Part shown: positions 6,340 through 33,315 of the stretch, one piece after another
Position numbering within the stretch: the first letter of the stretch is position 1
Layout of the letters: the number at the start of each line of letters is the position of its first letter
Virus record (IMG/VR): IMGVR_UViG_3300046001_003196
Span: 1-37,062 of that record
Source: a virus
DNA length: 37,062 nucleotides
Direction: 5' to 3' (one strand)
Made by a program: the position numbers and the translations under genes
Notes under the pieces: generated by a model
Told to the model about the DNA's origin: nothing
Database searches by the model: none
Seen by the model: only the letters and a program-made list of their open reading frames with translations

Positions 6340-6372
6340 AAAGGGGATGGAATTTTATTCCTCCCCTTTTTT
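6340..6372 (+). terminator. Intrinsic terminator after the abundant virion protein
   Basis: AAAGGGGA (6340-6347) pairs TCCCCTTT (6362-6369), with inner stem GGAAT/ATTCC (6349-6353 with 6357-6361), a one-base bulge and a TTT loop, followed by further T residues. It lies 26 bases after the stop codon and would lower transcription into the downstream small genes. An ATG at 6347 lies inside the stem and is an unlikely start. Confidence 0.8.
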
Positions 6373-6388
6373 ATTAAAACAAAAAAAT

Positions 6389-6961: not shown

Positions 6962-6962
6962 A

Positions 6963-7342: not shown

Positions 7343-7344
7343 CT

Positions 7345-8514: not shown

Positions 8515-8520
8515 TTAACT

Positions 8521-9687: not shown

Positions 9688-9715
9688 TAATTAATTTAAA
9701 ATAAAAATAATAAAA

Positions 9716-10270: not shown

Positions 10271-10282
10271 AAACCAAATAAT

Positions 10283-14460: not shown

Positions 14461-17400
14461 ATGGCAGATAATACATCTCAAGACAATACACCACAAGGGA
14501 ACATTAAATCAGAATACAATGTTGCTTCAACAGGTTTAAATTTAGATAACAGTGTTAATCAGATAGCTAAAGGACAATTAACTTATGCATTAAACGCATC
14601 AGTTGAAAACTTTGATGCTTCTTCAGTTAGTTATCAAAATGAACCAGGCAATGAATTTTGTATTGAGTTTCCTGCACAGTTTATTTTAATAGGAACACAT
14701 TTTATTGTTGAGCAAAGTAAACACATATTTTTTATTACTAATCCTGAAACAGGAGCATGTCAAATAGGATATATGGAGAATAATGATTGTGTTTATAAAA
14801 TATTAGTTAGTGCACCATGTCTTGCTTTTGATATAAATTATCCAATACATAAAGTTGTACATAAAATTACAAATTGTACAACAGAATTATATTGGACAGA
14901 TGGTTTAAATCCAAGAAGATATTTAGACATAAATAATATTCCTTATATATTACAAATTGATTCTGATCTTTGTGATCCTTCATTTACTGATCAACTTGAT
15001 TGTAATCAATTAAAATTACAACCTAATTTTAATATTCCTGAGTTAACAATAGTTGATGTTAGAAATGGTGGAGATCTTATCTCAGGCACATATCAATTTG
15101 CTATACAGTATTGTGATGCATCAGGTAATGAATACACATCTTATTATTCAGTTACTAATCCAACACCTATTGCTGATATACAAATAGTCACTCCTAATTT
15201 TAATTATGCTGTTGGTAAATCTATTGTTGTTAATATTAATAACTTAGATGCTACAGGACAGTTTCAGTATTTTAATCTTGCTGTAATCAAAACAATAAAT
15301 AACATTCCTTCTGTTGAGTTAGTGGGAACATATTTTATCGATGAAGCAAATAAAAATATCATATATACAGGACAAAACCAAACACAAATAAGATTAACTA
15401 TAAATGATATATTCTTAAAATATCCTTATTATGAAATAGCACAAGATCTAACATCTGTACAAGACATATTAATATGGGATAATTTAACATCTATAGATAG
15501 AATTAATTATCAATCTATTGCTAGTCAGATTACACTTCAATGGCAAACATATAAACTTCCTGCTACAGAAAACTATTCAGATGAACTCAATGCTACAAAT
15601 TTACGTGGATACATGCGTGATGAGGTGTATGCATTTGAGATTGTATTCTTATTGAGAAATGGAAAACAAACAGATGGTTTTCATATTCCTGGAAGAGAAA
15701 AAAATTCTAATGAAGCATATCCAGATGTTCTTGATACTAATGAAGATTTTATAGGAGAAGGACCTTCTGCTCCTTATTGGAAGATATATAACACAGCATC
15801 TGTAATTGGACCTGCTGTAGGAGATCCAATTGGAAATGCAACACCATACGAATATGGTGAATTTGCTTATTGGGAATCAGAAGATGTTTACCCATGCAAC
15901 ATAGATCTTTGGGGAGACTTAGCTGATCAACCTATTAGACATCATAAGTTTCCAGATGTGTTAGTTTCCCCTCATTATGAATCAGCTTTATTTGCTGGTC
16001 CAGGAAGTGCATTAGTTATGCAGAACGACGCTGTATTTCCTATTGGTGTAATAATAGATACAACTCAAGTTTTAAATTATATTAATTCTTCTAATTTAAC
16101 AAATAGTCAAAAGGCAGATATTGTAGGATATAAAATAATCAGAGGAGACAGAGGTACAAATAAATCTGTTATTGCTAAAGGTATTCTTAGAAATGTAGGA
16201 GAGTATGAAAGAGAAGAACAAAAGTTTTATTTTCCAAATTATCCATATAATGATTTAAATGTAGATCCATTTTTAAATGAAAATAATAATGCTTGGTCAT
16301 TAGTTTCAGAACCATTTTTAGTAAGATGGTTATCAAATGATGTAGTTGATGGAGTAGATTTAGGATACGCTACATGTGAATATACAGATGTTAACTCTAA
16401 CAAACTTACAACTAAAAAGATTTATCCTACTGGAGGTCCTACTAATCAAACTACTGGTGGTACTGGAGTATATGAATTTTGCTCTATTACAAGACCTATA
16501 TCAAAAGGAACTGGAAAACTTAGAGTGGGTCCTGCTAATTATGATGTTTGGGACATATACAGTGACTCTGGTCTTTTTACATGTGGACATAGAGCTGGAT
16601 GGAATGATCCATTTAATGATGATAATATTGCAGGTACAGTATTTAGAGAACAGCATGTATATAATTTAGGAGCAATTGGTGATGGAGCAACTTATACAAT
16701 TGTTGTTGTTGAAGATGGTGAAGGTCCTAGAACTACAAGATGTGGAACAATTTGGTTAATAATTGGTACTGTTAAGTGTTGTGAAGCAAGGTCATCTATA
16801 AGACCTCCTAAAGTGTTTGCATTAGGAGAAGTAGAAACTCCTCCAGGAATAGTTTTAGGTGCAGTAGCAACTGTTGGTGGTGCATTTCCTAATTTCATAG
16901 ATCAAAATAGACTATTTAGTAGAAGATCTTCATTAAACTGTAAAGAAGAAACTCCTCTAGCAGGTGTAGAAAATAAAAACAATCATTTACAGATATTTAA
17001 TTCTCCTGAGACATCATTTGGACAACCATTCTTAGGTGATGTATTAAAACTTGAGAACGTAATGTTTGGTGCTGGTAAAGCACATTTTGTTCAAGTAAAG
17101 AGTAATGCTAAATATAAATTGCTTTCTAAAGAAGCACAACAAGATGCTTTAGAAAGTGCAAATAGAATAGGAAACATTACAAGTGACTTTAATGCCACTG
17201 CTATGTTTACAGCATATCAGGCATATTTAACTATTTATGTAAATGGTATCACAAGAAAGAACTATGCTTATTCATATAACTCTATTGCTAATTATGATTA
17301 TTCTGAATCTATTCCAAATGATCTTGGAATTAAACAAAGAGATATTGATTATACACAATACTTAATTCCAGCTGTACAGTCTGTAGGAGACATCAATGGA

Positions 17401-20400
17401 ATAAGTATGAATAATTTTCAAAGAGAATCTTCTGTTTTTATTAGAACAATAGAAAATAGAAACACTTTACCAGTATCAGGATTTTCTTTTCCAAGTGATA
17501 CTTTCCCTATGATTTCTACAGGAGTAACTGATAAATCAAAACAAACTATTAGTAGTAGTTTTGTATGTGCTACACCAGCACAAGAAACTGATATTAGTGT
17601 AGTTTCTTATTATGCTTCTATGAAGAATATGTTTGTAAACCAATGGGGGCAAATATATTCATATGATACAGTTGATACAGGATTTCAAACAAATGTTAAT
17701 TCTTCTGCAATTAAAACAATATTTGGTGGAGATACATTTATATCTAGATTTGCATTCAAAACAAAACTTCCTTTCTTTATAGACAATAGAGTTAATGCTC
17801 CTGATGATTCAGATGTATTCTATGATGAGATTGGTAACATTGCCTATCCAAAATACTGGCACTCTGCTAGAAGTATATTAGATAACTATCAAATTAGTTC
17901 TCCTAATAATCCAGTAATTGCTAATATTATTTCTTATAAAGCACATAACTTTGATTGTCCTAGTGATCCTGCTAGTTATCCTCCTATACCAAATGCTGAT
18001 GTTCAAGCATTAACAGGTCTTAGTGGCACATATAGAACTTACTATGATGGATATTTTTATTTATTTGCATATGGAATTCCTAACTTCTATTGTGAAACAA
18101 GTTATAACTTAGATCTTAGACAAGCGTTTAATAATAAAGAAGGAGACTTTTGGCCTCATGTAACAACAGGTATTCCTGATGATTGGGTTCAAGAAAGTTA
18201 TGTATCTATAGCTAATGATAATACATATACATATAATGTAACATTCTCTAAACAAAATAAGGAAAATACGTTTACACATCTTCCTCCAGATTGGACAACA
18301 CAACTGTGTTATACAAACTTTCCATTTAGAGCAATCTATTCTGATACACAAAATCAAAACGCTGATGTTAGAGTTAACAACTGGTTAATCTATCGTCCTA
18401 TAGCACAATATGATTTTCCTCAGAATTATGGAAATCTAACATCATTAGATGGTATCCAAAATAAAGCTGTGTTGGCTAGATTTGAAAATAAATCATTGTT
18501 GTATAACACAATGCTTACAATCAATACAAGTAATCCACAAGCTGCCTATCTTGGTAACGATACATTATTTAAATCATCTCCTCCAATTGATTTTGCTGAA
18601 ACAGATCTTGGATATGTAGGAAGTCAGAATAAGTTCTTATTAAAAATTCCACAAGGACAAATAACTGTAGATGCTAAAAGAGGACAAATATTTCTTGTTA
18701 ATAGTAATCAAGCTGAAGATCTTTCTGCATTTGGCTCTGGATTGAATAGATTCTTTACAGACCATTTGGCATTTGAAATACTTAGATACTTTCCTAATAA
18801 AGAAGTTATAGTTAATAATGAAAGAATTGTAATTCCTGGAGTTAATATAGATAATAATTTTACAGGAGTTGGTCTTCATGGAGTATATGATTCTAAATAT
18901 GATAGAATTATAATTACTAAATTGGATTACATTCCAATAGATCCATATGTAAAATATAATTCTACTACTAAACAATTCTATGTAGAAGAAACAATAAATG
19001 ATATTGTATTTACAACACAAGTTTATTTAACAGACCCAGAATATTTCTGTAATAAGTCATGGACATTATCATTTAACTTTAATACTAAAAGTTGGATTTC
19101 TTTTCATTCATATATACCTAATTGGTATATAGCTGAAAACAATTTCTTTTATTCTGGTATAAATGGATGTTGTTCAGACATTGAAGGAGAATTTGAAGCA
19201 TTGGTAGGAGATACAAATAAACTTGTAACAACTACCACTACACAAGTTCCTGAAAGAACAACAAGTACAACAACTACTGTTACAACAATTAATTGTAATT
19301 TAGCTGGAATAATTTTCCAAACATCTTGTGAATTATCAGGAGATGCAATCATAACAGTTCCACCATCAACAACTACTACTGTGTGCACAAGACCAAGTAA
19401 TTTAAACTCTTTCACTTTTGCATCTGGTTATCAGATAGGATCAAATCCTGCTGTAGATTCTACAGTAAGTTTCAGTGCAGTTTGTGAAGCAATGTTAATC
19501 GTAGCTAGTCCTCAAGACAATTTAGTTATAACTTTATTTAATTTTACTACAGAAGAATTAAGTATTGGTCAAGTAGTATATTATGGTGACGATACTAATG
19601 ATTGTACTCTTGTTAGTGATGGATGGTACTACACTTCAGAATCACAATTTGATCAATTTGCTTATTATGTTGAATCAGGAGTAATTACAGAAATAGAATA
19701 TTGTATTTGTCTAACAACAACTACATCAACAACAATTATTAGTGTTCCTGAATGTTGTGGTATATTATTTAGTTCAGGTAATAATATTTATTATTCAAAT
19801 GACAATACTAATATGACAGAATTAAATGTTCCAGGATATAGTTCTTCTTTTGGAATAGCTATGACATCTAATTATTTATGGAGTGTAACAACACAATTCT
19901 CAATGTGGGATATTACATTGAGTCCATTCAGTGCAACATTTAATACAACTATACCATTCCCAGGAACATTCACAACTTCTTCAGGAATAGTTGCATTGAA
20001 CAATACAACACTAGTTGCAATAGATGATTCTGCTACACCAGAAGATGTTGTAGAACTAACACTTGATTGCAATGTAAATCCTCCTGTATTTACTTCTACA
20101 GTTCAATTTAGTTTACAAACAGATAGAACTGCCATAGGTAATATGTTATATACAGTTGCAAGTAAACTTATTGTAATAAATCAAGATACAGTAACATCTG
20201 ATTATTACTTGACACAATATGATTATGCTACAGGCGTAATTGAGTTAGATTTAAACATTGGCTCTAGTATTATTCCAACATCTATATTTCAATGTGAGTG
20301 TTTAATATACATTACAGATAATAGTAATAATGTATATGTAGTGAATCCAGATAATGCAACGCCATTGCTTAATGCAAATATCACTAGTCAAATTATTGAT

Positions 20401-20532
20401 TCAGCAGCACAGGTAGTTTCTTGTACATCAACTTCTTTAATAGAACCAACTACAACAACTACGTCATCATCTAGTACTACTACATCAACATCAACATCTA
20501 GTACAACGACTACATCAACAACAACTCCTTAA
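14461..20532 (+). CDS. Tail stabilisation (muzzle) protein body fused to adhesin cassette
   Basis: 2023 residues. Residues 1-1587 match the large tail stabilisation or muzzle protein of crAss-like phages: a start with 'TGLNLDNSVNQIAKGQLTYA', YWTDGLNPRRYL (144-155), NSPETSFGQP (847-856), and KSWISFHSYIPNWY (1543-1556), all beta-rich. Residues 1588-2023 are different: poly-Thr linkers, short Cys-bracketed domains, a propeller-like region beginning CCGILFSSGNNIYY (about 1770) with repeated strand patterns, and a Thr/Ser tail. The usual C-terminal part of the muzzle family is missing here and appears in the next gene. The protein probably forms the distal tail nozzle, with the cassette exposed to bind the host surface. 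It has no transmembrane segment. Confidence 0.75.
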   Translation: MADNTSQDNTPQGNIKSEYNVASTGLNLDNSVNQIAKGQLTYALNASVENFDASSVSYQNEPGNEFCIEFPAQFILIGTHFIVEQSKHIFFITNPETGACQIGYMENNDCVYKILVSAPCLAFDINYPIHKVVHKITNCTTELYWTDGLNPRRYLDINNIPYILQIDSDLCDPSFTDQLDCNQLKLQPNFNIPELTIVDVRNGGDLISGTYQFAIQYCDASGNEYTSYYSVTNPTPIADIQIVTPNFNYAVGKSIVVNINNLDATGQFQYFNLAVIKTINNIPSVELVGTYFIDEANKNIIYTGQNQTQIRLTINDIFLKYPYYEIAQDLTSVQDILIWDNLTSIDRINYQSIASQITLQWQTYKLPATENYSDELNATNLRGYMRDEVYAFEIVFLLRNGKQTDGFHIPGREKNSNEAYPDVLDTNEDFIGEGPSAPYWKIYNTASVIGPAVGDPIGNATPYEYGEFAYWESEDVYPCNIDLWGDLADQPIRHHKFPDVLVSPHYESALFAGPGSALVMQNDAVFPIGVIIDTTQVLNYINSSNLTNSQKADIVGYKIIRGDRGTNKSVIAKGILRNVGEYEREEQKFYFPNYPYNDLNVDPFLNENNNAWSLVSEPFLVRWLSNDVVDGVDLGYATCEYTDVNSNKLTTKKIYPTGGPTNQTTGGTGVYEFCSITRPISKGTGKLRVGPANYDVWDIYSDSGLFTCGHRAGWNDPFNDDNIAGTVFREQHVYNLGAIGDGATYTIVVVEDGEGPRTTRCGTIWLIIGTVKCCEARSSIRPPKVFALGEVETPPGIVLGAVATVGGAFPNFIDQNRLFSRRSSLNCKEETPLAGVENKNNHLQIFNSPETSFGQPFLGDVLKLENVMFGAGKAHFVQVKSNAKYKLLSKEAQQDALESANRIGNITSDFNATAMFTAYQAYLTIYVNGITRKNYAYSYNSIANYDYSESIPNDLGIKQRDIDYTQYLIPAVQSVGDINGISMNNFQRESSVFIRTIENRNTLPVSGFSFPSDTFPMISTGVTDKSKQTISSSFVCATPAQETDISVVSYYASMKNMFVNQWGQIYSYDTVDTGFQTNVNSSAIKTIFGGDTFISRFAFKTKLPFFIDNRVNAPDDSDVFYDEIGNIAYPKYWHSARSILDNYQISSPNNPVIANIISYKAHNFDCPSDPASYPPIPNADVQALTGLSGTYRTYYDGYFYLFAYGIPNFYCETSYNLDLRQAFNNKEGDFWPHVTTGIPDDWVQESYVSIANDNTYTYNVTFSKQNKENTFTHLPPDWTTQLCYTNFPFRAIYSDTQNQNADVRVNNWLIYRPIAQYDFPQNYGNLTSLDGIQNKAVLARFENKSLLYNTMLTINTSNPQAAYLGNDTLFKSSPPIDFAETDLGYVGSQNKFLLKIPQGQITVDAKRGQIFLVNSNQAEDLSAFGSGLNRFFTDHLAFEILRYFPNKEVIVNNERIVIPGVNIDNNFTGVGLHGVYDSKYDRIIITKLDYIPIDPYVKYNSTTKQFYVEETINDIVFTTQVYLTDPEYFCNKSWTLSFNFNTKSWISFHSYIPNWYIAENNFFYSGINGCCSDIEGEFEALVGDTNKLVTTTTTQVPERTTSTTTTVTTINCNLAGIIFQTSCELSGDAIITVPPSTTTTVCTRPSNLNSFTFASGYQIGSNPAVDSTVSFSAVCEAMLIVASPQDNLVITLFNFTTEELSIGQVVYYGDDTNDCTLVSDGWYYTSESQFDQFAYYVESGVITEIEYCICLTTTTSTTIISVPECCGILFSSGNNIYYSNDNTNMTELNVPGYSSSFGIAMTSNYLWSVTTQFSMWDITLSPFSATFNTTIPFPGTFTTSSGIVALNNTTLVAIDDSATPEDVVELTLDCNVNPPVFTSTVQFSLQTDRTAIGNMLYTVASKLIVINQDTVTSDYYLTQYDYATGVIELDLNIGSSIIPTSIFQCECLIYITDNSNNVYVVNPDNATPLLNANITSQIIDSAAQVVSCTSTSLIEPTTTTTSSSSTTTSTSTSSTTTTSTTTP
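19228..19380 (+). repeat. Poly-ACN tracts at the muzzle-adhesin junction
   Basis: Two Thr-rich tracts (19228-19290 and 19366-19380) on either side of a short Cys domain (CNLAGIIFQTSC). They mark where the muzzle body ends and the adhesin modules start. Confidence 0.75.
20449..20526 (+). repeat. Poly-ACN C-terminal tract of the muzzle-adhesin gene
   Basis: 26 Thr/Ser codons (ACA, ACT, ACG, TCA, TCT, AGT) directly before the last Pro and TAA. The next gene, with a GPF domain, starts 4 bases after the stop. Confidence 0.85.
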
Positions 20533-20536: not shown

Positions 20537-21403
20537 ATGTCAAAAACTATAATTGTAAAATTAACAAGAGCTGGTGCAAATGCTGGACCATTTACCATTA
20601 CTGATGATTTTGGGAATGTAATAGCAACTGATGTACCTAAAAAAACTCTTATTAGAGGAACTGCATTTGTTGTAAATAACGATGTATTGATATTATATCT
20701 AGAATCAACAGGGAAGTGTCCTATAAAAAAAGCATTTCCTTTACAATCATTTACAATTAATGATGTTGCAGATTCAACATTTATACAAACAACAACAGCT
20801 TGCTTGTGGAGACATCTAACTAATATACAATTATATAATTCTTATTATGGAAGAATAGATCAATACATTATTGAATATCCTTTCTCTTATCAATATCAAG
20901 ATGAAATCTTGCAGAATGTAAAAGACTACACTAAGGCATATGAATATCTCTCTATACCAGATGGTGTATTTAATGATAACACAAGAATAGAAACAAATAA
21001 TAAATGGTTTACACATGCTGTTCTATATAATGGACAACAGAGTTCAGGACTATTAGAACTAGTAGCTAAACCAATGAATAACTTAAAAGCATACAATCAA
21101 TATCCAATATTTAATACAAACAGTAAAACAATCACATATACAAAGAGTGATAACTTCTATCAGTATAATACATTCTGGGCTTTAGAGAAAAGTTCTCAAG
21201 TTCAATTATTTAATACGTCATGTGAAAGCATGTCAATTGATAAAGTGATTAATGAAAGCAATATGGATTATGGAATTAGAAGCTTTAAAAAATCTCCTCT
21301 AAGAGCAAAAGAATTAAAAATACGACATATTCTCAAAGACAATTGTACAACGCACTTAGTGAGCCAATTCATAATTGCTCCTGCGCAAATATCTTATAAG
21401 TAA
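20537..21403 (+). CDS. GPF domain fused to the detached muzzle C-terminal domain
   Basis: 288 residues in two parts. Residues 1-75 are the GPF-type small beta domain (AGANAGPF at 12-19), similar to the N-terminus of the 10283 gene. After a short Thr linker (QTTTA, 84-88), residues 89-288 (CLWRHLTN; then YNGQQSSGLLEL at 164-175; then 'YNTFWALEKSSQVQLF' and a Cys) resemble the C-terminal end of crAss-like tail stabilisation proteins, which typically have W-R-H, a Y-G turn, an N-x-x-Q-x-SGLL segment and a W/Cys end. So the product probably completes the muzzle fold made mainly by the upstream gene. Its stop overlaps the start of the next gene (TAATG). The split is inferred from family memory. 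Confidence 0.6.
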   Translation: MSKTIIVKLTRAGANAGPFTITDDFGNVIATDVPKKTLIRGTAFVVNNDVLILYLESTGKCPIKKAFPLQSFTINDVADSTFIQTTTACLWRHLTNIQLYNSYYGRIDQYIIEYPFSYQYQDEILQNVKDYTKAYEYLSIPDGVFNDNTRIETNNKWFTHAVLYNGQQSSGLLELVAKPMNNLKAYNQYPIFNTNSKTITYTKSDNFYQYNTFWALEKSSQVQLFNTSCESMSIDKVINESNMDYGIRSFKKSPLRAKELKIRHILKDNCTTHLVSQFIIAPAQISYK

Positions 21404-24400
21404 TGACTGGTAAAGTAAAATGCACATGTGGATGGTCATGGAACAAATCTGATTCTAGTAAGAAGGATATGTACATATGCCATGAGTGTGGAAGAGACAA
21501 TAGCAACAACATGAGAAATGGTGGATGGTTAGATTCATATGCTGATGGTGGAACAATGCAAGAACACCAAGAGAATTATAATGATTATAAAGTTTCTGCT
21601 CCTGAAGGTTTTCAAGGAACTGGATATAGCAATGTAGGTAGAGATTATTCTCCTGCATGGGGAGGACAGTTTGAAGATGGAGGAGAAATACCTATGGCTC
21701 AAAAAGGAAAAAAGTTAAAACCAATTACTACAAATGATCCTGCAGATCCTAGATTACATAAATATTTAGATAGTCTTAATCTTTACAAAGGGTATGAACT
21801 TTCTAAAAAATATAATAAACAAGGAGAATATAGTTTTCCTAATGCTCCAAAAGGAAAAGTAAAATATTCTAAATCAAATACTTTACCTCATAAATCTTAT
21901 GAAGAATATTTAAAATTTAGTAATGAATATGATAAAAGATTTAAAAAAGCATATGATAAAGGAGGGATGAATGCTGTTAATGCTGATTCTTTTTTATCTA
22001 GTAAACAAGGTAGGCAAACTTCTTTTTCTAAGAAAGAAGATCTTTATAAATATGATCCTGCTGCAAAAGCTTTAATAGACCAATATGAAAAATTATCTTT
22101 TAAAGAACCTGTAGAAACAGGATATTGGAAAACTCCTGATTTATACCATCCTACAATTAGAGATATAGGAAGTTATTATAAAGGAGCTTTTAATCCTATA
22201 TTTAAAAAACCAAATCAAGAAGTTATTTATTCTGGAAATCCAAAAGATGTTGAAAAATTAAGACAAAAACCTTATATAGCTGGAGTAACTAATCCTAAAA
22301 TACAAAAACAAGTAATATTACAAAAACCTATACAAGCAATAGAAAATAATTTACAACCAATAGGAATACAAAATGATTTTAATATAGAAGCAGATGTTCC
22401 ACAAATAAGACCTCAAGCAATAATGCCAAAGTCTTTTGATATTACATCACAAAGACAAACTATGTCTGGACCAAGTGATTATTATAATTACAATCAACAA
22501 GGTCTTAGTATAGAACAAGCATTAGAAGCTAAACGAGCAGCTGATGCATACAATCAATCTATACAGGATAAATATGGAAATAGTAAAAATCCTGAAGCTC
22601 AAGAAAGATTAAAACAATTAATGCAAGATGTAGAGCTAACTCCTAATTATCAAATGGGTGGATCTGTCTATCCAGTTAATTATGTTCCTCAAGCTCAAGA
22701 TGGTGAAAATTTAAATACACCAGAAAATTGGGAAAAATCTATAAGAAATATAGAACACCAAATTGGTAATCCTAATGAATGGTCTATTGATGGTTATAGA
22801 CAATTACAAAAACAAGTCAATGAGTATAAATTCTGGAGAGAAAATACTCCAGAAGGAAAAGCTGTTTATGATTCTCACAATGAATCAAATGAATATGTAG
22901 TTCCTCTTCCTGATCATTTAAAAATGTATAAACCTTTAAATATGCTTGAAGAAGTTACTCCTAATTATAAAAAAGTAGGAGTTGTTCCTCAAGCACAAGG
23001 TGGTTATCGAATGGGAACTTACTTTGATGAAGATGCTAGAGAAATAGAACCTAATATGATGGAAGAAACCTATGACGATTATCGTACAGCAATGGAAGGT
23101 ATGATGAAATCTAAGATGGCTACACAAGCTACATTAGGAAATAAAAGTGCACAACGTATGATGTCTAGTAATCCTTCTAAATATATATTTACAGGTAATG
23201 AAAGATTCTCTGATGGAAGTCAAGCTGAAGGTGCTGGAGCTTATGGAACTCATTATATGTCAAATAGAGATAATTATGTTTATCCTAACTTACAAGATAA
23301 TGGAGAAGGAATATTAAACTTTATACCAAATGCATCTCCTTCTGATAGAGAAGCTATGAGATTTGAAAATGCTGATGAAGCTGATTACTTTGCTAATCAT
23401 TATAAGGAAGTTGCTCCTATGATGAAAGCTAATAAAATGCAGATGGGTGGTTCTATGCCAGGAGCTGTAGGATTTACATATGCTAGAACTAAAGGTATTC
23501 CATCAGAAGGTCCATATGCAAAGAAGACACTTCCTAGTGCACAGAATGGAGGAGAGATGAGATATTATCAAAATGGATTAGATTGGAAACCAAAAGGAAT
23601 GAAAGATGGTGGATGGTTAGATGGATATGATAAAGCTGAAGAAGGTGAGAAGATAAAAATAAAAGAACGCCCAACAGAAACAGTTAGTGAAAGTACTGGT
23701 ATTGGACAAAACATGAAAATTAAATTAAATAAAAATGTAAAACATACATTAGGTGAAATTAAAAAAGGAAATAATATTGTAAAAAAACGTGGGAACTATG
23801 TAGTGACTGCTAATAATAAAGTTTTAATTCCTGTTAATAGAAAAGGGCAACAACAACAATATGTTCCTTATAAACAATTAGATCCTAAAGAAAAATTAAA
23901 CCAAGAAGAAATAAATAAAATTGCTAATTATAAAGAAGCATTAGATAAAGAAAATCTTGGTATTGGAAGTAGACCTTTAATTTATTTAGAATCACCAGAA
24001 AAAATATTAGGTGATATAGGTATTCCAGGAATGGAAACTTCTGAAGATGATAGATTACGTGCTGCTCAATTATACAATCATCCTGATAATGCTAATATGT
24101 CAATGTTAGATGTTATGTCTGATAGTTTTAACTATGGTGTTAGAAAAGTTCCAGGTGCAGCTTTGAATACAGCTCTTGCTATGATAGGAAATCCTAATGC
24201 AGGACCATTGAGAGTTATAGGTGAAGCAATGAATCCTTTACCAACGCCTTTACCAGGAAGAGGTATGAAAATAAATGCAGGGGATGATGTTGCAAGAATG
24301 GCAAAACAAGCTGATAATGTACAAGATACTTATGGATTAATTAAAGAAAAAAATAATCCTCTTCAGTTTGATTCAGAAATAAATTGGGGTAAAGAGTATT

Positions 24401-25974
24401 TTGAAAAAATACAAAATAAAGAAAAAGAACTTCAGGATTTAGTTTTTTCTAAAAAGATTACTGAAAAAGAATATTTAGAAGGAGTACCATTATATGAAAA
24501 AGAATTAGCAAAAGAATTAGGACTTGAAAATAAGTTAGGTAGTGGAAATTATGGAAAGGTATTTGAATCACCAAATGACGCATCTAAAGTAATAAAATTA
24601 GGAAATCCTATGTCAGCTGGAGGAACAGGTGCTTCAAATTGGACACCTGAACTTATAGAAAAATTAAAGTCTATAAAACAAAATGCAAATATTGCTGTTC
24701 CAGAACAAGTAGAATATTTTGAAATACCTTCTTTGTATCAAGGATATGGACCAAAGACAAAAGAAGTTATGACTATGCCTAATTTAAATCAAGTAGCTGC
24801 TGAAAATTTAAACTTAAATAAAAGAGATAGATATGCTTTATTTTTAAAACAAGCAAGACAACTTAGAGATCAAGGCATTCAACTAGATGTTAAAAATATT
24901 GAAAATTTTAAGTTTAATAAAGATAAAGGTGTTTTTGATATTTATGATATAAATCCAGGATATATTTCTAATCCTGGTTACTATATGCAAGATGTGGTAA
25001 ATAAAACAAGAGGTCCTTTATTTGAAAACATGCAATTTAAACAAGGAGGAATCATTAAAGATGATAGGGGGCAATGGGATCACCCAGGAGAGATAACAGA
25101 AATAAATTCTCCATATATAACAATGCAAGGAGTTCCTTATCCTGTTCTTGGTATATCAGATACAGGAGATACAAAACTAATGAAGCCAGGAAAGAACTAT
25201 AAGTTTAAAGGAAAGAAGGTTACAGAGTTTCCTATGGCTCAAAATGGAATAAAAACATTTTATAATGATTATATTAACTCTCCAAAGTATAAAGAAAGAT
25301 TAGAGTTACAAAATTATAATAATCCTGATAAAGTAGTATCTGATAGAAGTAAACATTTAATGAAAACAAAATTAAATACTATCAAAGATACAGGAGGATT
25401 TACAGCAAATAACACAGGATCATATTATACTCCTGAAACAAATACAGTTGATTATGATGAATTTGATTTAAAACTTTATCCAGGATCAACTTCTGAAGAT
25501 ATTAAAACTCATGAGTTATCACATGCAGTAAGTGCATTATCTCCAAGAAATAAAAGTAATTTAACTTTAAATAAAAATGAAGTAACTGAAATTAACTCAA
25601 GAAATAAAAATAAACAGGAACATGAAAAAGATCCAGAGGAAGCTAAAGCAGATATGGATGTACTTCGTTATCATTTAAAAAAAGATAAATTATATGATAC
25701 TGGTAAAGAAGAATTTACACCAGAATTATATAATGCAGCAAAGAAAAAATATAAAAATAACCAAACTATAAAAAGATTTTTTAATAGATTTTCAGATAAA
25801 GATGCTATTTATTTAATGAATAGCATTGCTCAACTTAATGATAAAGATGAGTATGTGCCTATGGCTAAGAATGGATTAAGACAAGAACAAAAAGGTTTGG
25901 TAAACTTGGATAATCTCCTTAATTTTACAAACTATAATACCCAACAACCAGGAGGCTGGTTAGATACTTTATAA
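21403..25974 (+). CDS. Giant cargo protein with zinc ribbon, kinase-like and metallopeptidase-like regions
   Basis: 1523 residues, beginning in a TAATG overlap. Residues 7-29 form a zinc ribbon (CTCGW...CHECG). A Gly-loop GSGNYGKV (1046-1053), K1065, D1162-V-K1164 with N1168, and Y-D1182-I-N-P-G match the order of protein-kinase elements, though the spacing of N1168 is one residue longer than usual. Near the C-terminus H1370-E-L-S-H1374 is an HExxH zinc motif, and E1412 or E1413 in DPEEAKAD could be the third ligand. P-M-A-Q-x-G-like motifs recur at 97, 429, 529, 711, 1277 and 1486, and GGWLD recurs at about 41, 736 and 1517. It is probably an internal, ejected multi-domain (polyvalent) protein acting on host targets; substrates are unknown. 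Confidence 0.65.
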   Translation: MTGKVKCTCGWSWNKSDSSKKDMYICHECGRDNSNNMRNGGWLDSYADGGTMQEHQENYNDYKVSAPEGFQGTGYSNVGRDYSPAWGGQFEDGGEIPMAQKGKKLKPITTNDPADPRLHKYLDSLNLYKGYELSKKYNKQGEYSFPNAPKGKVKYSKSNTLPHKSYEEYLKFSNEYDKRFKKAYDKGGMNAVNADSFLSSKQGRQTSFSKKEDLYKYDPAAKALIDQYEKLSFKEPVETGYWKTPDLYHPTIRDIGSYYKGAFNPIFKKPNQEVIYSGNPKDVEKLRQKPYIAGVTNPKIQKQVILQKPIQAIENNLQPIGIQNDFNIEADVPQIRPQAIMPKSFDITSQRQTMSGPSDYYNYNQQGLSIEQALEAKRAADAYNQSIQDKYGNSKNPEAQERLKQLMQDVELTPNYQMGGSVYPVNYVPQAQDGENLNTPENWEKSIRNIEHQIGNPNEWSIDGYRQLQKQVNEYKFWRENTPEGKAVYDSHNESNEYVVPLPDHLKMYKPLNMLEEVTPNYKKVGVVPQAQGGYRMGTYFDEDAREIEPNMMEETYDDYRTAMEGMMKSKMATQATLGNKSAQRMMSSNPSKYIFTGNERFSDGSQAEGAGAYGTHYMSNRDNYVYPNLQDNGEGILNFIPNASPSDREAMRFENADEADYFANHYKEVAPMMKANKMQMGGSMPGAVGFTYARTKGIPSEGPYAKKTLPSAQNGGEMRYYQNGLDWKPKGMKDGGWLDGYDKAEEGEKIKIKERPTETVSESTGIGQNMKIKLNKNVKHTLGEIKKGNNIVKKRGNYVVTANNKVLIPVNRKGQQQQYVPYKQLDPKEKLNQEEINKIANYKEALDKENLGIGSRPLIYLESPEKILGDIGIPGMETSEDDRLRAAQLYNHPDNANMSMLDVMSDSFNYGVRKVPGAALNTALAMIGNPNAGPLRVIGEAMNPLPTPLPGRGMKINAGDDVARMAKQADNVQDTYGLIKEKNNPLQFDSEINWGKEYFEKIQNKEKELQDLVFSKKITEKEYLEGVPLYEKELAKELGLENKLGSGNYGKVFESPNDASKVIKLGNPMSAGGTGASNWTPELIEKLKSIKQNANIAVPEQVEYFEIPSLYQGYGPKTKEVMTMPNLNQVAAENLNLNKRDRYALFLKQARQLRDQGIQLDVKNIENFKFNKDKGVFDIYDINPGYISNPGYYMQDVVNKTRGPLFENMQFKQGGIIKDDRGQWDHPGEITEINSPYITMQGVPYPVLGISDTGDTKLMKPGKNYKFKGKKVTEFPMAQNGIKTFYNDYINSPKYKERLELQNYNNPDKVVSDRSKHLMKTKLNTIKDTGGFTANNTGSYYTPETNTVDYDEFDLKLYPGSTSEDIKTHELSHAVSALSPRNKSNLTLNKNEVTEINSRNKNKQEHEKDPEEAKADMDVLRYHLKKDKLYDTGKEEFTPELYNAAKKKYKNNQTIKRFFNRFSDKDAIYLMNSIAQLNDKDEYVPMAKNGLRQEQKGLVNLDNLLNFTNYNTQQPGGWLDTL

Positions 25975-25976: not shown

Positions 25977-28900
25977 ATGAAAGCACAATTTTTAAAAATC
26001 GCTAAATGTAAGGATGAAAAATCCTTCTACAAAAAGTACCCTACTCAGGAAGCTTTTTTCAAAGCTCACCCTGAAGCTAGATCTATTAAGAAAGCTGAAA
26101 TAGGAGCTTACATAGGAGGTGATACTATGGCTAATGCTGAACCAATTAGCTATCAAACGTATTATGATGATGCTGATAAATTAATCACTGGATTTACAGA
26201 AAAAGAAAGACAAGAAGCTACTTATAAAGAACAAGAGTTAAAAGCAAATAAAGCTAGTTCTTCTGGTATGGAAAAACTTCTAGGGATGATTGGTGGAGGT
26301 GCTCCTGGTGGTGAAGAAGAAGGTGGCATGCCTGATATGGGTATGGGTAGAAATGGAAAATATATTCCTAGAGCATATGGTGGTGAAGAAGTACCAGGTG
26401 GCTACAGTGGTGGATATTATCCACCTCCAATAGATGCAAGTCTTGAGGGATCTCCTGGGTATCAATACCAACAAGCACACGATGCTCCAAGTGGTGGTGG
26501 TGGTGCAGGATTTCTTAATAATGCATTAAAAGCTGTTCCTATTGTAGGAGGTCTTATAAGTGGAATACAAGGATTAAAAGCTGAGAAAGAAGCAGCTAAA
26601 GCAGCTAAACAACAAAAAACAGTAAGTGGTTTACAATTAACAGCTTCTGCTACTAGACCTGAACAAATACAAAGAAGATATGTACGTCCTGAAGATGTGT
26701 CTATTCAACCAAATCAAATGTTTCCTACATATGGTGTAGGAACAAATGTTCTTGCTAGAGATGGTGAAATAATTAGAAGAGCACAATCAGGAACATCAGA
26801 AGCAGGTTCTGTTGACATTGCTCCAGAAATTCCTGGAGGTATGATGGGAAGAGCACCAATGATTCCTGAAGTTGATGCTTTAATGCCTATTAAAGAAAAA
26901 CCATCAAATTTTGATTCTAAATCTGCTAGAGATAACTGGGTTCAAAAAACAGGACTTCCATGGAGTGAAGCTAAAAGACTTGGATATACAAATGGTTCTG
27001 CAAAAGATAATACAAAACTATTAAGTGAGTTAAATGATCCTAGGTTTAAAAAAGAAAATCTAAGAAGAGAAGCTCCTAAAAGTAAATCTCAAGGACGTAC
27101 ACCTGTACAACATACAGATACACCTACAGGAAGGTTGACACCTATTAAAAAACCATTAACTATGGATGAGTATTTTAAAGGTAAACCTAAATATAAACCA
27201 TCAAAAAGTAACATAGGTGTTCCTGATGAAGGAAATATGGTTACTAGAATTGGAGAACGTTTAGCTAATCCTTTGCAAACATTTGCTAATTATGCTAAAT
27301 ATAGAGAACTACCTCCTGAAGGATTTTCTAAATATAGTAAAAATGCTTTTGATCAAGTGTTGGCACTTAGAAATCCTGCATACTGGGCAAATGCTGTAGG
27401 CAATGCTTCAGACTATGCAAGTGAAGAAGAATACAAAAAAGCAGTAATAGAAGCTGCAGAGGCATTACCTGCATTAGGAAAACTTAAATATACTAAATAT
27501 ATACCATATGAAAAAGGACTTCCTGCAGCAAGAGAGTTTGTTAGGAGAGCTGGTTATTTAGGAGAAGGTGCTAAAAGAATAGGTACTGGAGCTGCTAAAC
27601 AATTACCTGGAAACGCTGCAAAACAAATAGGACCAGGATATGTTCCTAATTTTACAATGTATCGAAGTGGTGGAGAAATACAAAACACATATGCTCCAGG
27701 TTATTTATATGACAATCTTGGTTATGAACCATTAAATGATTCTAATGTAAAACAATATTATAGAGGTGGAGATATTCCTAAAGCTCAAGGTGGGTTTAGT
27801 AATTACATGAATAGCTTGAGTGGAGGAGGAAGTGGTTTCTCTGGAGCAGGTGAAGCAGGAAGCACTCCTTGGGGAGCAATTGGTTCAACTGCAGCAGGGA
27901 TGACAGGTGAAACAAATGCTGGTGGTAATATTGGTGGTACAGTTGGTGGAGCTTTAGGGAGTGCTTTTGGACCAGCAGGTAATGCAGTTGGAACTTTTGT
28001 TGGCACTATAGCAGGAAATGCACTTGATCCATATGCAAAAGCAATTAAAAGAGACACAGCTGCAACAAAAAGAAATATTGAAAATATAGCATATAATAAA
28101 ATGGCTCCTGGTTTAATAGCTCCATATCAAGCACATGCAAGAAATGGTAGAAACATTGCTAACTACGAAGAAGGTGGATATATGAATCCTGAATATAACC
28201 CACAAGTTATAGCTTCTTTTGGTGGTCTTAGTGAACAAGAAGTATATGACTATGCTCATGATGGAATGCAATCATTAAGAGCAGGAGGTCACATTAGAGG
28301 AGAGTATACACCTATTAGTAATAGAGGTATGGAACAATATGCTATGGGTGGTGAAGTTAAAACTACATGGGGGGGACATGCTGAAACTATTTCACATAAT
28401 CCATATATGCCAGGTACTGGTGAAACTATTATGTTTAGAGGAAAATCACATGATGAATCTGATGGTAATGGTAACACAGGTATAGGTGTTAAATATGGCA
28501 AAGGTGCAAAAGATAGTTATACAGACTATGCTGAATATGGAACTCAAGAAGCTGATGCTGATGTAGAAGTGGAAAGAGGAGAACCAGCTGCAGAGTTACA
28601 AGATGCTAATGGTGAAAAGAATTTAACAGTATATGGTAATTTAAAAATACCAAATCAATATATAGACTTATTAGGAGATCCTAATGCCAAGGGTAAGAAG
28701 TTTAAAAACTATGTTAATGATTTATCTAAAATAGAAGCTAAACAAAATAAAATTGTAGAGTCTTCTACAAATAAACTTAATGCATTGAACCCACAAACTC
28801 AGTTTGATAAATTAAAATTAACTTCATTACAGGCTAGTATAGAAGGAGCTAATATGAAACTTAAGGATATAGCTAGTAAGAAAATGAATGCAGCTTATTT

Positions 28901-30371
28901 ACAAAATGCCATTAATGATACAGCAGAAGAAAATGGTTTAGTTGCTGATGATCTTGCAAGAGGTAGAGTGAAAGTTGATAAAGAAGCTTTACAAGAATAT
29001 GCTGAGTATGGTAAGACAATCAAAAAAGCTGAAACAGGAACAACAATAGATAATGAAGGTAAAAAAATTACAAAAGCTGAAAGACAAAGATTGCTTAAAT
29101 CAGGAGAGTATAAAGTAGATCCATCCAATCCTAAAAATATTTATAGAGTAAAATCTAAAAGTGCTACAAGTGAACAAAAGAAATCTGCAAGTGCTTTAGG
29201 GTATATTCCTAAAGGACAAAGTGTAGATCCTACTACTGGATTATCAAATAAAATTACAAAAAAAGAATTTGAAGATTTTAAAAACAATAATAAATGGTAT
29301 GATTGGAGTAAGTTTGATGCAAAAGATCCAAACGCTGTAAATGATGCTGCAAATAAATTTAATGAAAAAGCAAAAGAAATAGGTTCAGATGCAAGAATAT
29401 TACCAGACAAAGATGGTAAGGTTACAATTGTAGGTCAGCAATATATAAGTGGAAAGTTGGAAGATGCTAAACAAGAAACTCCAGGTTCTACTGAAGCAGA
29501 TTATTTAGAAGTAGAAGATGAAGATAAAGTATATGATGTAAATGCTCAAAAAAGAAATCCTTGGTTAGATCTTGCAGGACAAGTACTTCCATTCTTTAGA
29601 CCTACAGATCAAGAAGGACTAGACTATGATCAATTAATGGGAGAGATGTATGCTTTGTCTAGTAATCAATTAGAGCCTGTACAAGCACAAGGATATCAAC
29701 CTGACCTTGCTACACCATATGATATTTCATATCAAGATCAATTAAATGCAAATCAAGCTGATTATAATGCTACACAAAAAATGGTTGGATATAATCCTGC
29801 TGCACAATCAATATTAAATGCTCAGAAATATGCAGCTAATACAGGAGTGCTAGGAGAACAGTTCAGAGCTAATCAAGCAATGAAGATGGGTGTATATGAT
29901 CAAAACAGACAAACATTAAATGATGCTAAGCTTAAAAACTTATCAATATTTGATCAACAATATACAAGACAAGAGCAAGCTAAGAGCAATACAAAAGCTG
30001 TAACACAAGCTGCATTGAATTCTATTTCTGATAAGTATGCTAAGAACAAACTTGAGAACAGAGAGCTTGGTATATATGAGAACTTATACAACTACAGATA
30101 TGATCCATCAGGAAGAGCTATAAACATGAACGCTCCTTGGCAAGCTAATATTCCTAATATGTATAATAAAGGCAATCAAACTGCTAACATGCGTGAGGTA
30201 TATGATAAACAAGGAAACTTTTTAAGATATGAACCTATTGGACAAACTCAAACAACCACTGATGATACACTAGATGCTGCAGGTAGAACTACTGGAATTG
30301 GTGATAAAAAGAATGGTGGTAAAATAAAATATAAAAATGGTTCAATTGTAAGCTCATACAAAAATTTATAA
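25977..30371 (+). CDS. Giant internal virion protein with glycine-zipper segment
   Basis: 1464 residues. The N-terminus (KDEKSFYKKYPTQEAFFKA, about 13-31) is a conserved opening in Bacteroidota phage internal proteins. Residues about 630-685 form a Gly/Ala-zipper-like hydrophobic stretch (AIGSTAAGMTGET; GGNIGGTVGGALGSAFG) able to pack in a membrane. A conserved section around 807-870 has GTGETIMFRGKSHDE and VEVERGEPA. Motifs PKAQGG (601-606), RRAQSG (about 269) and KKAETG (about 1015) resemble those in the preceding gene. The C-terminal part (about 1220-1420), with 'EMYALSSNQLEPVQAQGYQP' and 'NRELGIYENLYNYRYDP', is Gln/Asn-rich and helical and shared widely in this protein type. It may form or travel through the DNA ejection channel. 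It starts 2 bases after the previous stop. Confidence 0.65.
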   Translation: MKAQFLKIAKCKDEKSFYKKYPTQEAFFKAHPEARSIKKAEIGAYIGGDTMANAEPISYQTYYDDADKLITGFTEKERQEATYKEQELKANKASSSGMEKLLGMIGGGAPGGEEEGGMPDMGMGRNGKYIPRAYGGEEVPGGYSGGYYPPPIDASLEGSPGYQYQQAHDAPSGGGGAGFLNNALKAVPIVGGLISGIQGLKAEKEAAKAAKQQKTVSGLQLTASATRPEQIQRRYVRPEDVSIQPNQMFPTYGVGTNVLARDGEIIRRAQSGTSEAGSVDIAPEIPGGMMGRAPMIPEVDALMPIKEKPSNFDSKSARDNWVQKTGLPWSEAKRLGYTNGSAKDNTKLLSELNDPRFKKENLRREAPKSKSQGRTPVQHTDTPTGRLTPIKKPLTMDEYFKGKPKYKPSKSNIGVPDEGNMVTRIGERLANPLQTFANYAKYRELPPEGFSKYSKNAFDQVLALRNPAYWANAVGNASDYASEEEYKKAVIEAAEALPALGKLKYTKYIPYEKGLPAAREFVRRAGYLGEGAKRIGTGAAKQLPGNAAKQIGPGYVPNFTMYRSGGEIQNTYAPGYLYDNLGYEPLNDSNVKQYYRGGDIPKAQGGFSNYMNSLSGGGSGFSGAGEAGSTPWGAIGSTAAGMTGETNAGGNIGGTVGGALGSAFGPAGNAVGTFVGTIAGNALDPYAKAIKRDTAATKRNIENIAYNKMAPGLIAPYQAHARNGRNIANYEEGGYMNPEYNPQVIASFGGLSEQEVYDYAHDGMQSLRAGGHIRGEYTPISNRGMEQYAMGGEVKTTWGGHAETISHNPYMPGTGETIMFRGKSHDESDGNGNTGIGVKYGKGAKDSYTDYAEYGTQEADADVEVERGEPAAELQDANGEKNLTVYGNLKIPNQYIDLLGDPNAKGKKFKNYVNDLSKIEAKQNKIVESSTNKLNALNPQTQFDKLKLTSLQASIEGANMKLKDIASKKMNAAYLQNAINDTAEENGLVADDLARGRVKVDKEALQEYAEYGKTIKKAETGTTIDNEGKKITKAERQRLLKSGEYKVDPSNPKNIYRVKSKSATSEQKKSASALGYIPKGQSVDPTTGLSNKITKKEFEDFKNNNKWYDWSKFDAKDPNAVNDAANKFNEKAKEIGSDARILPDKDGKVTIVGQQYISGKLEDAKQETPGSTEADYLEVEDEDKVYDVNAQKRNPWLDLAGQVLPFFRPTDQEGLDYDQLMGEMYALSSNQLEPVQAQGYQPDLATPYDISYQDQLNANQADYNATQKMVGYNPAAQSILNAQKYAANTGVLGEQFRANQAMKMGVYDQNRQTLNDAKLKNLSIFDQQYTRQEQAKSNTKAVTQAALNSISDKYAKNKLENRELGIYENLYNYRYDPSGRAINMNAPWQANIPNMYNKGNQTANMREVYDKQGNFLRYEPIGQTQTTTDDTLDAAGRTTGIGDKKNGGKIKYKNGSIVSSYKNL

Positions 30372-30483: not shown

Positions 30484-33315
30484 ATGGCATCATTTACAGA
30501 TAATCCTCAATTGCTTGGAACCTTTAACCCTTATGTAGCTCAACTTCCTGTTGACGCTATGGTTAAAGTTGGTATGCAAAAACAAAAGCAATACGATGAG
30601 GGTATACAAAAGATACAAACAAACATTGATAACATTGCAGGACTTGATGTTAGTAGAGATGTGGATAAAGCATATCTACAATCTAAACTTAATCAATTGG
30701 GTAATGATACAAGAATATTTGCAATGGCAGATTTCTCTAATGCGCAAATGGTCAACTCTGTAAATGGAATGACAAACTCTCTTATAAAAGATAACAATAT
30801 ACAAACTGCTGTATCTTCTACAGCTAAATTAAGAAAAGAACAAGGTAGAATAGAAAAAGATATACAGGATGGTAAATCAAATCCTGCTAACACTGAATAC
30901 TTTAATAAGCGTGCACAAAATTATTTAAATTCAAGTGATATAGGAGAAAATTTTAATGCTAGTTATATTTCTTATTTTGATGTAGATAAGTTTGCTAGAG
31001 AAACATTCGATGCTGTAAAACCAGATGGATTTTCATATGATCAAATATATCAATTAGGAGCTGATGGTAAACCTTCAAAAGATGCTAAAGGTAATCTTAT
31101 ACTATCACCTACAATGACTAGAATGGAGAAGGAAGGAATTTTTCCTCCTAAAGTTAAAGCAACGTTAGAACAAATCTTTTCAGATGCTAGAGTTGGTCAA
31201 CAATTAGATATTACAGGCCAATACAATTATAGAAACTTAAATCCTAATCAACTTTCAGAAAAGATTATACAACAAAAAGAATCTATAGTCAGTGGTTATG
31301 AAAATCAAATAAATGAACTCATTCTTCAAAAAAGTATGGGCAAGGATGTTCAAAAAGACATTGATGATCTAACAAGTAAAATGACAACTGTTTCATCTTC
31401 TTATGATGATTATGCTAAATCAGCTATGACTAATCCAGATGGTGTAAGAGGAGCTTTATATAAAGATGATGTTTCAGCTAGGTATACAACTATGTTTGGA
31501 CAAATTAAAGATAAGTCTCAAGTAATGGAGAATCCAGAGTGGAACCAAAATTGGAAAATGCAAACAGAAGCAAATAGACAATCTGAATTTGCACAAACAT
31601 TACGTCAAAGAAAAATAGAACATGCTGACACTAAACAATATCAATATGATTCATTAGCACAAGCAAAAGAACTTGCTTTGATTGCTGCTAAAGGTAAGAA
31701 ACAAACATTAGGTGGAGCTGATGGAGGACTTGGTTCAGGTCCTGGAGGTATACCTAGTGAGCAAGCTGCTCAGTCTGCTGCTATTGAAACAATGAGAGTA
31801 CAAGCTACTGATTTTGAAAATGCAGCAAATGATTATTCTAATGCATCAGATTCATTTATTTGGGAAACTATTTTTTCAAAAGTTCCTAACAATGGTGTTA
31901 AACTAAAAGGGTTGATGGATAAAGGAATGAAACGTGATCAAGCTATTGCTTTATTAATAAACAATGGTGCTAAAGTTTCTAACAAAACTCCAGAAGAATA
32001 TAAATCATATTGGTCAAGTAAAGCATCTTTAGAATATAAAAAATTAACTCCTGAACAACAAGCTGCTCGTCCAGTCATTGCTGATGCATATCAAACATAT
32101 AGAAATTCTAAACGAATCTTTGATAGTCAATTAATAGTAAATGAAAGAATTAAAAAACAAACGAAAGCTGAACTTGGAGAAGTAGGTAATAAAATTGCAA
32201 TGACAGATTTTAAACCACAAGTTATTACTTATAATGATAGAAAATATACAGTAGATAAACAAGACATGCTTGATCTTGCAATTTATAAAAAAGGTAATTT
32301 AGGATTTATGCAATCTATATTTGGTGGAGAAGATTCTAGACTTCTTGAAGAAGAATCAAAATTTGCTCTTGCTAGATTAACTAAAAGAGGTAAAGGAGCA
32401 TTAGCAGAAGCATATCTTAAAGATAATGAAAATGTTACTATAGATCAAAATGGTAAAGCTACTCGCATGGAAGGGGATGGTTTCTTTGGAAGTTTAAAAG
32501 AATTAGCTAATATTCCTGATAGACTAAGATATCAATCTGAAGGATGGGGAGGAACTACTAGAAATTGGAATCAAGTTCATTCTATAGAAGGCATGTTAAA
32601 TAATGAGGTTTATTCAAAGGGGATTCAGAAAAAAGCTGAAATTATACAACAACATTATAACATTCATCCAAATAGAAATATTAATATTATAACAGGAGAT
32701 GCTGAAACTGATAAAGGTACAATAGCACAACTTAGACGTTTTGCTGGTGAAGCTGTATCAGGAGCAGGAAATTTATCTCCAGATTATAAAGAGTTTGGTA
32801 AAAATGTAAAAGGAGATATTAATGATATTACATTAGGAGCTAGAACTATTTTTGATGAAAATAATAATCCTATGGTTGAAGTAATATCTTATGGCGAAGA
32901 TAGTGAAAGAAAAGCAGGTATTACATTAACACCAGATCAAGCTACTAACATTGGAATTGATCTTGGTTCATTGTATGAAAGTAAAGAAGCTTCTGCACTT
33001 AGAAATAAATTAAATTTTAATAACTATAAAACTTCTGAAGGCGATCCTTCAGATAAATCTACATACGTTAATGAAGATGCATATTATGATAAGACTGATT
33101 TCCCAGGAATGAAAGGTAATAAAACATTTGATGTTCAAGCAAATATTATATATAATGGTGGTAAATATTATCCTTTTATATATGTATCTGATGGAAAAAC
33201 AACACCTAATCCAATACAATTAAATGGTGATGAGAATTTAGAAAATTTAATAACAAGTCTTAAAAACGTAGTTACACCTACTTTTGTTAATGGTTTAATG
33301 ACAAATCCAAACTAA
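30484..33315 (+). CDS. Large internal virion protein (943 residues), unknown function
   Basis: 943 residues with no recognised catalytic motif or membrane segment. The N-terminus ('LLGTFNPYVAQLPVDAMVKV', about 10-29, then KQKQYDEGIQKIQTNIDNIA, about 34-53) begins a long helical region and is typical of a conserved large protein beside the glycine-zipper protein in Bacteroidota phages. Coiled-coil-like parts lie around 255-300; a flexible Gly-rich linker (GGADGGLGSGPGG, about 410-422) separates the halves. The C-terminal third is mixed alpha/beta. It has its own predicted promoter and operator-like repeats. It probably belongs to the virion interior or tail, by analogy and position. A chaperone or channel-forming role would also fit. 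Confidence 0.55.
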   Translation: MASFTDNPQLLGTFNPYVAQLPVDAMVKVGMQKQKQYDEGIQKIQTNIDNIAGLDVSRDVDKAYLQSKLNQLGNDTRIFAMADFSNAQMVNSVNGMTNSLIKDNNIQTAVSSTAKLRKEQGRIEKDIQDGKSNPANTEYFNKRAQNYLNSSDIGENFNASYISYFDVDKFARETFDAVKPDGFSYDQIYQLGADGKPSKDAKGNLILSPTMTRMEKEGIFPPKVKATLEQIFSDARVGQQLDITGQYNYRNLNPNQLSEKIIQQKESIVSGYENQINELILQKSMGKDVQKDIDDLTSKMTTVSSSYDDYAKSAMTNPDGVRGALYKDDVSARYTTMFGQIKDKSQVMENPEWNQNWKMQTEANRQSEFAQTLRQRKIEHADTKQYQYDSLAQAKELALIAAKGKKQTLGGADGGLGSGPGGIPSEQAAQSAAIETMRVQATDFENAANDYSNASDSFIWETIFSKVPNNGVKLKGLMDKGMKRDQAIALLINNGAKVSNKTPEEYKSYWSSKASLEYKKLTPEQQAARPVIADAYQTYRNSKRIFDSQLIVNERIKKQTKAELGEVGNKIAMTDFKPQVITYNDRKYTVDKQDMLDLAIYKKGNLGFMQSIFGGEDSRLLEEESKFALARLTKRGKGALAEAYLKDNENVTIDQNGKATRMEGDGFFGSLKELANIPDRLRYQSEGWGGTTRNWNQVHSIEGMLNNEVYSKGIQKKAEIIQQHYNIHPNRNINIITGDAETDKGTIAQLRRFAGEAVSGAGNLSPDYKEFGKNVKGDINDITLGARTIFDENNNPMVEVISYGEDSERKAGITLTPDQATNIGIDLGSLYESKEASALRNKLNFNNYKTSEGDPSDKSTYVNEDAYYDKTDFPGMKGNKTFDVQANIIYNGGKYYPFIYVSDGKTTPNPIQLNGDENLENLITSLKNVVTPTFVNGLMTNPN

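Follow-up and report, generated by a model that had tools for sequence, protein, structure and literature searches.

What does the long open reading frame (ORF) between the muzzle gene and the C1-type cargo gene of a crassvirus structural block encode, and how is its product put together? We addressed this question computationally for the virus record IMGVR_UViG_3300046001_003196, whose 37,062 bases are called the window here; coordinates are positions in it, and the assigned genes and gene segments given below lie on the + strand. The ORF (21403-25974) is uninterrupted over 1523 amino acids (aa), and its product is called P0001. A first-pass annotation had described it as a multi-enzyme effector delivered with the DNA, with a zinc ribbon, a kinase and an HExxH protease. 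All of these motifs lie in the single ORF where that annotation put them, but it missed the main point, which is that a conserved backbone holds the domains of P0001 as inserts that can be interchanged. We consider P0001 to be probably a crassvirus-type cargo protein, with three slots for exchangeable effector modules in its conserved backbone.

P0001 is a conserved backbone with three slots

Relatives of P0001 were collected with its residues 1-100, which gave 80 viral loci (numbered with an L) at 48-90% identity. The backbone was counted using profiles of four conserved segments, M1 to M4, on 59 nonredundant proteins from these loci. The order M1-M2-M3-M4 was kept in 59/59 proteins, and mean pairwise identity within the segments was 64-75%. 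Beyond M1 the protein sequence was extremely variable among the 80 loci; the nonredundant proteins were 178-1678 aa long.

M1 (residues 1-105; 21403-21717), present in the 80 related loci with 72% mean pairwise identity, contains a four-Cys zinc ribbon followed by GGWLD, PAWGGQF and PMAQKG. The ribbon, CTCGWSW...CHEC (residues 7-29; 21421-21489), is formed by the Cys pairs C7/C9 and C26/C29, and its exact pattern, CxCGW...CxxC, was conserved in 64 of the 80 leaders, as expected from the first-pass annotation. The leaders outside this pattern include CxxC plus CGH variants (L032, L049, L072, L086) and proteins with a different N-terminus. M2 (residues 678-719), together with M2b (residues 714-744), spans 23434-23634; the M2 hidden Markov model matched 55/59 nonredundant relatives, with 69% mean identity. 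M3 (residues 1213-1284; 25039-25254), ending in EFPMAQNG, was found in 54/59 relatives, and M4 (residues 1486-1521; 25858-25965), running from PMAKNG to GGWLD, in 43/59. A protein of a different phage (L003:6878-8476) also starts with repeated CYKCGGKM units beside GG motifs, in a style like that of the backbone leader.

The slots were defined as the intervals M1/M2 (slot A), M2/M3 (slot B) and M3/M4 (slot C). Their inserts ranged from 0 to 976 aa, and inserts longer than 60 aa filled slot A in 39/55, slot B in 38/53 and slot C in 6/43 proteins. In the window all three are occupied. The slot A insert (residues 100-677; 21700-23433) comprises several modules, and this slot is empty in relatives or holds unrelated modules; the slot B insert (residues 720-1212; 23560-25038) was delimited by the segment profiles of relatives; the slot C insert (residues 1285-1485; 25255-25857) is the zincin domain described below. 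L036, which at 229 aa is the shortest clear relative with M1-M2-M3-M4, is a nearly uninserted backbone. In most relatives M3 and M4 overlap by about 7 residues at a PMA[QK]NG joint, and the zincin of the window is flanked by two copies of this joint, EFPMAQNG and YVPMAKNG. The joint motifs of the backbone are P-x-A-[QK]-x-G and GGWLD. P0001 is thus a conserved backbone carrying exchangeable modules in slots A, B and C.

Modules are inserted, lost and moved

Near-identical phages were compared across the gene. L020 and L030 share 99.8% identity over 6273 nucleotides (nt), from the muzzle gene through the gene for a 288-aa protein to the end of M1; L020 then has 926 nt more in slot A, corresponding to one module, and identity is 98.9% thereafter. 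L028 and L034 are 95.8% identical upstream, L028 carries extra slot sequence, and identity is again 94% downstream. The sole within-gene difference between L031 and L035 is in part of slot B (about 900 versus 390 nt), with 99% identity on both sides. The pairs L084/L085 and L059/L083 are similar patchworks. In addition, the same zincin family was found in slot C (window, L027, L042), slot B (L044), slot A (L072) and after M4 (L053). Module insertion, loss and movement are therefore supported by direct sequence evidence, and the route of exchange is presumably recombination at the joints. Since near-identical phages differ in their modules, the tools carried into the bacterium appear to be swapped quickly. 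The kinase-like module of slot B is shared, at 64% identity, with L003, a different and unrelated phage in which it lies next to the portal gene, so that module has moved between unrelated phages.

The content of the inserts was analyzed with Pfam, which identified ART-PolyVal (5.6e-11), GNAT, DUF6782 (a putative metallopeptidase), DUF6973 and PT-TG, each in a single or a few members. HExxH motifs were observed 25 times against 0.36 expected, in eleven similarity groups of which only part were examined as zincins; 23/92 inserts had an HExxH domain. Among 416 insert tiles, 92 had no relative among other inserts. The Pfam search gave no named function for slot A of the window, or for slot B outside the kinase-like module. 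The repertoire matches that of polyvalent proteins, which would support action inside the host cell.

A predicted zincin fills slot C

The slot C domain contains the predicted zinc-binding and catalytic motif HELSH (residues 1370-1374, with E1371; 25510-25524) and, downstream, DPEEAKAD (residues 1410-1417), in which E1413 (25639-25641) is the predicted third zinc ligand. E1413 and D1417 form the ExxxD pattern of Glu-zincins. HExxH occurred in 0.95% of composition-shuffled copies of P0001, and H1370, E1371, H1374, E1413, R1422 and a late Asn were among the invariant residues in an alignment of 12 homologues; because of this low rate and this invariance, the motif is not due to chance. The 12-sequence alignment excludes the first zincin copy of each of phi4:1 and phi14:2, which misplaced the third-ligand Glu. 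The catalytic residues were kept even in homologues 19% identical to the window copy. The domain matched phrog_24249 (1.4e-23), with phi4:1 gp041, phi17:2 gp042 and phi14:2 g070. A viral contig scan with the zincin gave ten loci, to which profile searches added leader-bearing members.

AlphaFold2 (AF2) modelled the domain with a predicted local distance difference test (pLDDT) score of 84.7 and a predicted template modelling score (pTM) of 0.86. The model has strands at its positions 43-47, 61-63 and 68-72, a helix at 84-97 with HELSH and a helix at 131-147 with E1413. The top structures in VIA-align were all zinc metallopeptidases: neprilysin (Z 8.6, 166 residues, 4.9 Å), PepO and ECE-1, followed by lethal factor (Z 7.5) and PPEP (Z 6-7). 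Foldseek against BFVD gave significant matches to proteins of Cellulophaga phages (1e-12, 5e-8) and of uncultured phages (6e-5 to 2e-4), and HMMER with the zincin profile against PDB gave weak matches only, including fragilysin at HExxH. The zincin fold of the first-pass annotation is thus borne out by the model, the structure matches and the invariant HExxH and E1413, and on this modelling the slot C domain is a zincin with predicted metallopeptidase activity.

A kinase-like module in slot B

The module of about residues 1004-1206 (24412-25020) has kinase-type motifs in the right order, although chance remains possible for the order: the Gly loop LGSGNYGKV (1045-1053), K1065 in VIKLG, LDVKN (1161-1165) with D1162, K1164 and N1165, an extra N1168, and DINPG (1182-1186). 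Its only relative found in viral_contigs was the 64% identical copy in L003; no others were detected in genome_contigs, in phage records or elsewhere in 48 related phage records. The L003 copy keeps the Gly loop glycines, K1065, D1162, N1165, N1168 and D1182, and LDIGN replaces LDVKN, so K1164 becomes Gly. Loss of motif residues in close homologues, which the first-pass annotation had named as counting against its reading, thus holds in part, for the D-x-K lysine, although the remaining catalytic-type residues are retained.

No kinase family match above threshold was found in Pfam or PDB sequences. The best Pfam model was YrbL (E 0.01, 15.9 bits against a cut-off of 31.5), at the Gly loop position. 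With the two-sequence profile, the six PDB sequences listed were all protein kinases, including HopBF1 and CK2 alpha, aligned at the Gly loop (best E 0.28). HopBF1 is a minimal kinase. The window sequence alone matched the FERONIA kinase weakly at the Gly loop, with one non-kinase ranking higher.

The kinase claimed by the first-pass annotation was thus not borne out, whereas the zinc ribbon, the zincin fold and the make-up from several domains that it proposed were supported. The chief alternative, to which we give a substantial but smaller share of belief, is that region 1035-1200 has another fold and that the motif order is coincidental. It agrees with the unusable AF2 model (pLDDT 39.9, from a two-sequence alignment), the subthreshold matches, the replacement of the D-x-K lysine and the position of the nearest Asn residues, at D+3 and D+6 from D1162 rather than at D+5. 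Against it stand the kinase identity of all six PDB sequences, the FERONIA and YrbL matches at the same place and the residues conserved in L003. On the motifs and these matches, we lean slightly towards the module being a kinase. Polyvalent kinases that lost the C-terminal subdomain are described by Iyer et al. (2017; PMC5512222).

The L003 protein with this module (L003:3780-6875) adjoins the portal gene and has an N-terminal weak phage lysozyme match (E 0.002). The gene order there is portal, module-bearing protein, 532-aa protein, probable scaffold and capsid.

Gene position and packaging

The window is a crassvirus structural block in which Pfam recognised the capsid, ring 1, ring 2 and muzzle families, the ring proteins as CrAss_Ring_1 and CrAss_Ring_2. 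The major capsid protein is encoded at 1578-3143 (Crass_capsid, 6e-29) and the muzzle protein at 14461-20532 (crAss_MUZ, 4.6e-36). Immediately 5' of P0001 lies the gene for the conserved 288-aa protein (20537-21403). Downstream are a C1-type cargo gene (25977-30371), assigned to the position of crAss001 gp45 by gene order, with homology to gp45 judged by eye only, and a probable C2-type cargo gene (30484-33315), assigned by position and gene order. The placement of the P0001 gene was the same in all related loci where neighbours could be tested, with the muzzle gene upstream in 75/75, the 288-aa gene upstream in 79/79 and the C1-type gene downstream in 66/66. The cargo genes C1 (gp45) and C2 (gp46) of crAss001 come, in this order, right after its muzzle gene (gp44), whereas in the window the 288-aa protein and P0001 separate the muzzle from the C1-type gene. 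The possibility that P0001 is the C1 protein itself was dropped, since the next ORF holds the C1 position and crAss001 has no P0001 counterpart.

The cargo proteins C1 and C2 of crAss001 were detected in virions, and gp45 was resolved in the tail and the capsid (PMC10172136). Two homologues of the zincin, gp041 of Cellulophaga phage phi4:1 and g070 of Cellulophaga phage phi14:2, carry annotations as virion proteins detected by mass spectrometry and are encoded at the same gene position. Because M1-M4 have no detectable relation to the portal-bound domain of gp45 (residues 425-552, seen bound to the portal by cryo-electron microscopy), we infer packaging of P0001 from these homologues and from synteny, which together support the cargo status given by the first-pass annotation. 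Ejection into the host would follow by analogy with the cargo of crAss001. The profile of the gp45 domain had no match in P0001, and the idea that M3 is a copy of it was rejected.

In phi14:2 g070 (L005:7816-9597) and L018:5392-6663, one protein combines the zincin with a homologue of the portal-bound domain of gp45, which suggests from the sequences that a protease docks at the portal. Cellulophaga phage phi4:1 gp041 (L004:6423-8642), annotated only as a tail protein, combines a phage tail lysozyme at its N-terminus (PF18013, 5e-32) with two HExxH domains in tandem.

The 288-aa protein is constant in length and always lies just 5' of the variable gene; most loci with a complete copy show 55-81% identity. 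It matched no annotated family and may be a partner or chaperone of the backbone. In L026, L036, L038, L042 and L047 (about 5280 to 5990), the cargo gene starts some 700 nt after the 288-aa gene, which leaves room for an additional gene. Elsewhere in the window, 5109-10873 holds consecutive ORFs rich in long Thr/Ser tracts (TTTTTTST repeats), possibly encoding fibre or surface proteins, and the C-terminal half of the muzzle protein (19258-20530) has similar tracts. A crassvirus-type muzzle with 33% identity was also found in PP438436.1 (85805-87721), a record named Leptolyngbya phage Lbo-JY46; it is unexpected for a cyanobacterial host, and the host assignment may need checking.

Proposed mechanism and alternatives

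If P0001 is a modular cargo protein, its backbone would position it inside the virion. On infection it would leave through the tail in an at least partly unfolded state, either ahead of the DNA or together with it, and its modules would refold in the cell and act early, the slot C zincin cutting proteins and the slot B module perhaps serving as a reduced protein kinase. Phages would renew the module set by recombination at the conserved joints. Both the module targets and the kinase activity are what we infer within this scheme. A stronger version, which we put forward tentatively and with more doubt than belief, is that the backbone is dedicated to delivery: its short segments would suffice to load, order and eject any slot domain, and a shared effector pool would be swapped at P-x-A-[QK]-x-G joints, making a natural plug-in injector for Bacteroidota.

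Several results weigh against the cargo reading, besides the AF2 result for the kinase region. Most inserts match no described family; the Foldseek matches of the zincin model to PDB were individually not significant (best E 0.14); comparison of the M1-M3 profiles with the gp45 portal-bound domain by hhalign showed no relation, with a probability below 1% for M3; and we know of no virion proteomics for the window phage or for any phage with the M1-M4 backbone.

It is unlikely, if worth consideration, that the zincin has no host targets and is an autoprocessing protease. It would then release modules from the cargo polyprotein, either in the virion or once ejected, and the P-x-A-[QK]-x-G joints might be its cut sites. 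The modules in P0001 are indeed flanked by similar joint motifs, and Iyer et al. (2017) propose autoprocessing for polyvalent zincins and cite phage P1 DdrB as processed (PMC5512222). However, the HExxH count in the inserts means that many members have joints without such a domain, the zincin occurs in the phi4:1, phi14:2 and L018 proteins without the M1-M4 backbone, and N4 vRNAP is packaged unprocessed according to the same paper. Less probable still is a role in helping the tail cross the envelope, in which the zincin would work alongside virion lysozymes and cut peptidoglycan or proteins of the periplasm. The fusions to lysozyme in phi4:1 gp041 (to two HExxH domains) and, from its weak match, in the L003 protein (to the kinase-like module) fit such a role, but P0001 has no lysozyme match, the structures matched by the zincin are protein and peptide endopeptidases, and the ART and GNAT modules of the same family point to the cytoplasm. 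That P0001 is a structural filler (a tape or packing protein) with decayed or selfish inserts and no infection function, as annotation of homologues only as tail or structural proteins and the nearly empty L036 backbone might suggest, is very improbable given catalytic residues invariant down to 19% identity and the recurrence of recognisable enzyme families in inserts.

Crassviruses are the most abundant human gut phages (PMC10172136). Their relatives live in other environments too, and the action of their cargo in the cell is almost unknown. A constant carrier with changing modules reveals where each module starts and ends, so that uncharacterised domains can be excised and assayed singly. 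The family also provides a natural system in which to test how proteins are delivered into Bacteroidota, and it lets one ask directly which barriers in the host select for a change of modules.

Comparison with known systems

The zincin of P0001 shares HExxH and a downstream Glu in ExxxD with the gluzincin families M13 (neprilysin, PepO) and M34 (PPEP, lethal factor). The fold matches have Z 6-8.6 but only 8-17% identity, and membership of these families is not claimed.

Like P0001, crAss001 gp45 and phi14:2 g070 are encoded downstream of the muzzle gene in crassviruses, and g070 carries the gp45 portal-bound domain with two HExxH domains. P0001 differs from gp45 in being a separate protein, encoded after the muzzle block and ahead of the C1-type gene, for which crAss001 has no equivalent. 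The virion protein phi4:1 gp041 (phrog_24249) has a homologous zincin (34% identity) and is encoded at the gene position of P0001. It differs in its tail lysozyme and second zincin, and the search with the M1 leader did not match it.

Polyvalent proteins, as presented in the relevant part of their description (PMC5512222), are large multidomain phage proteins thought to be injected with the DNA and bearing zincins, ART, GNAT, reduced kinases and lysozymes. P0001 itself has one supported catalytic domain, the zincin, and one possible, the kinase; family-wide there are zincins, ART-PolyVal and GNAT, and one member matches the ART-PolyVal Pfam model itself. Unlike the polyvalent proteins as portrayed there, the P0001 family has a fixed-slot backbone, recurring joints and one gene position in the crassvirus virion block. 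We read P0001 as an effector of the polyvalent kind, presumably injected, whose modules can be exchanged. Polymorphic toxin systems (PMC3482391) share with it a conserved trafficking part and exchangeable toxin domains, but in the P0001 family the exchange is not confined to the C-terminus and involves three internal slots. Both polyvalent proteins and the cargo of crassviruses have been described before; what appears to be new is the slot backbone whose modules are exchanged between near-identical phages, of which a limited text search of the literature found no description.

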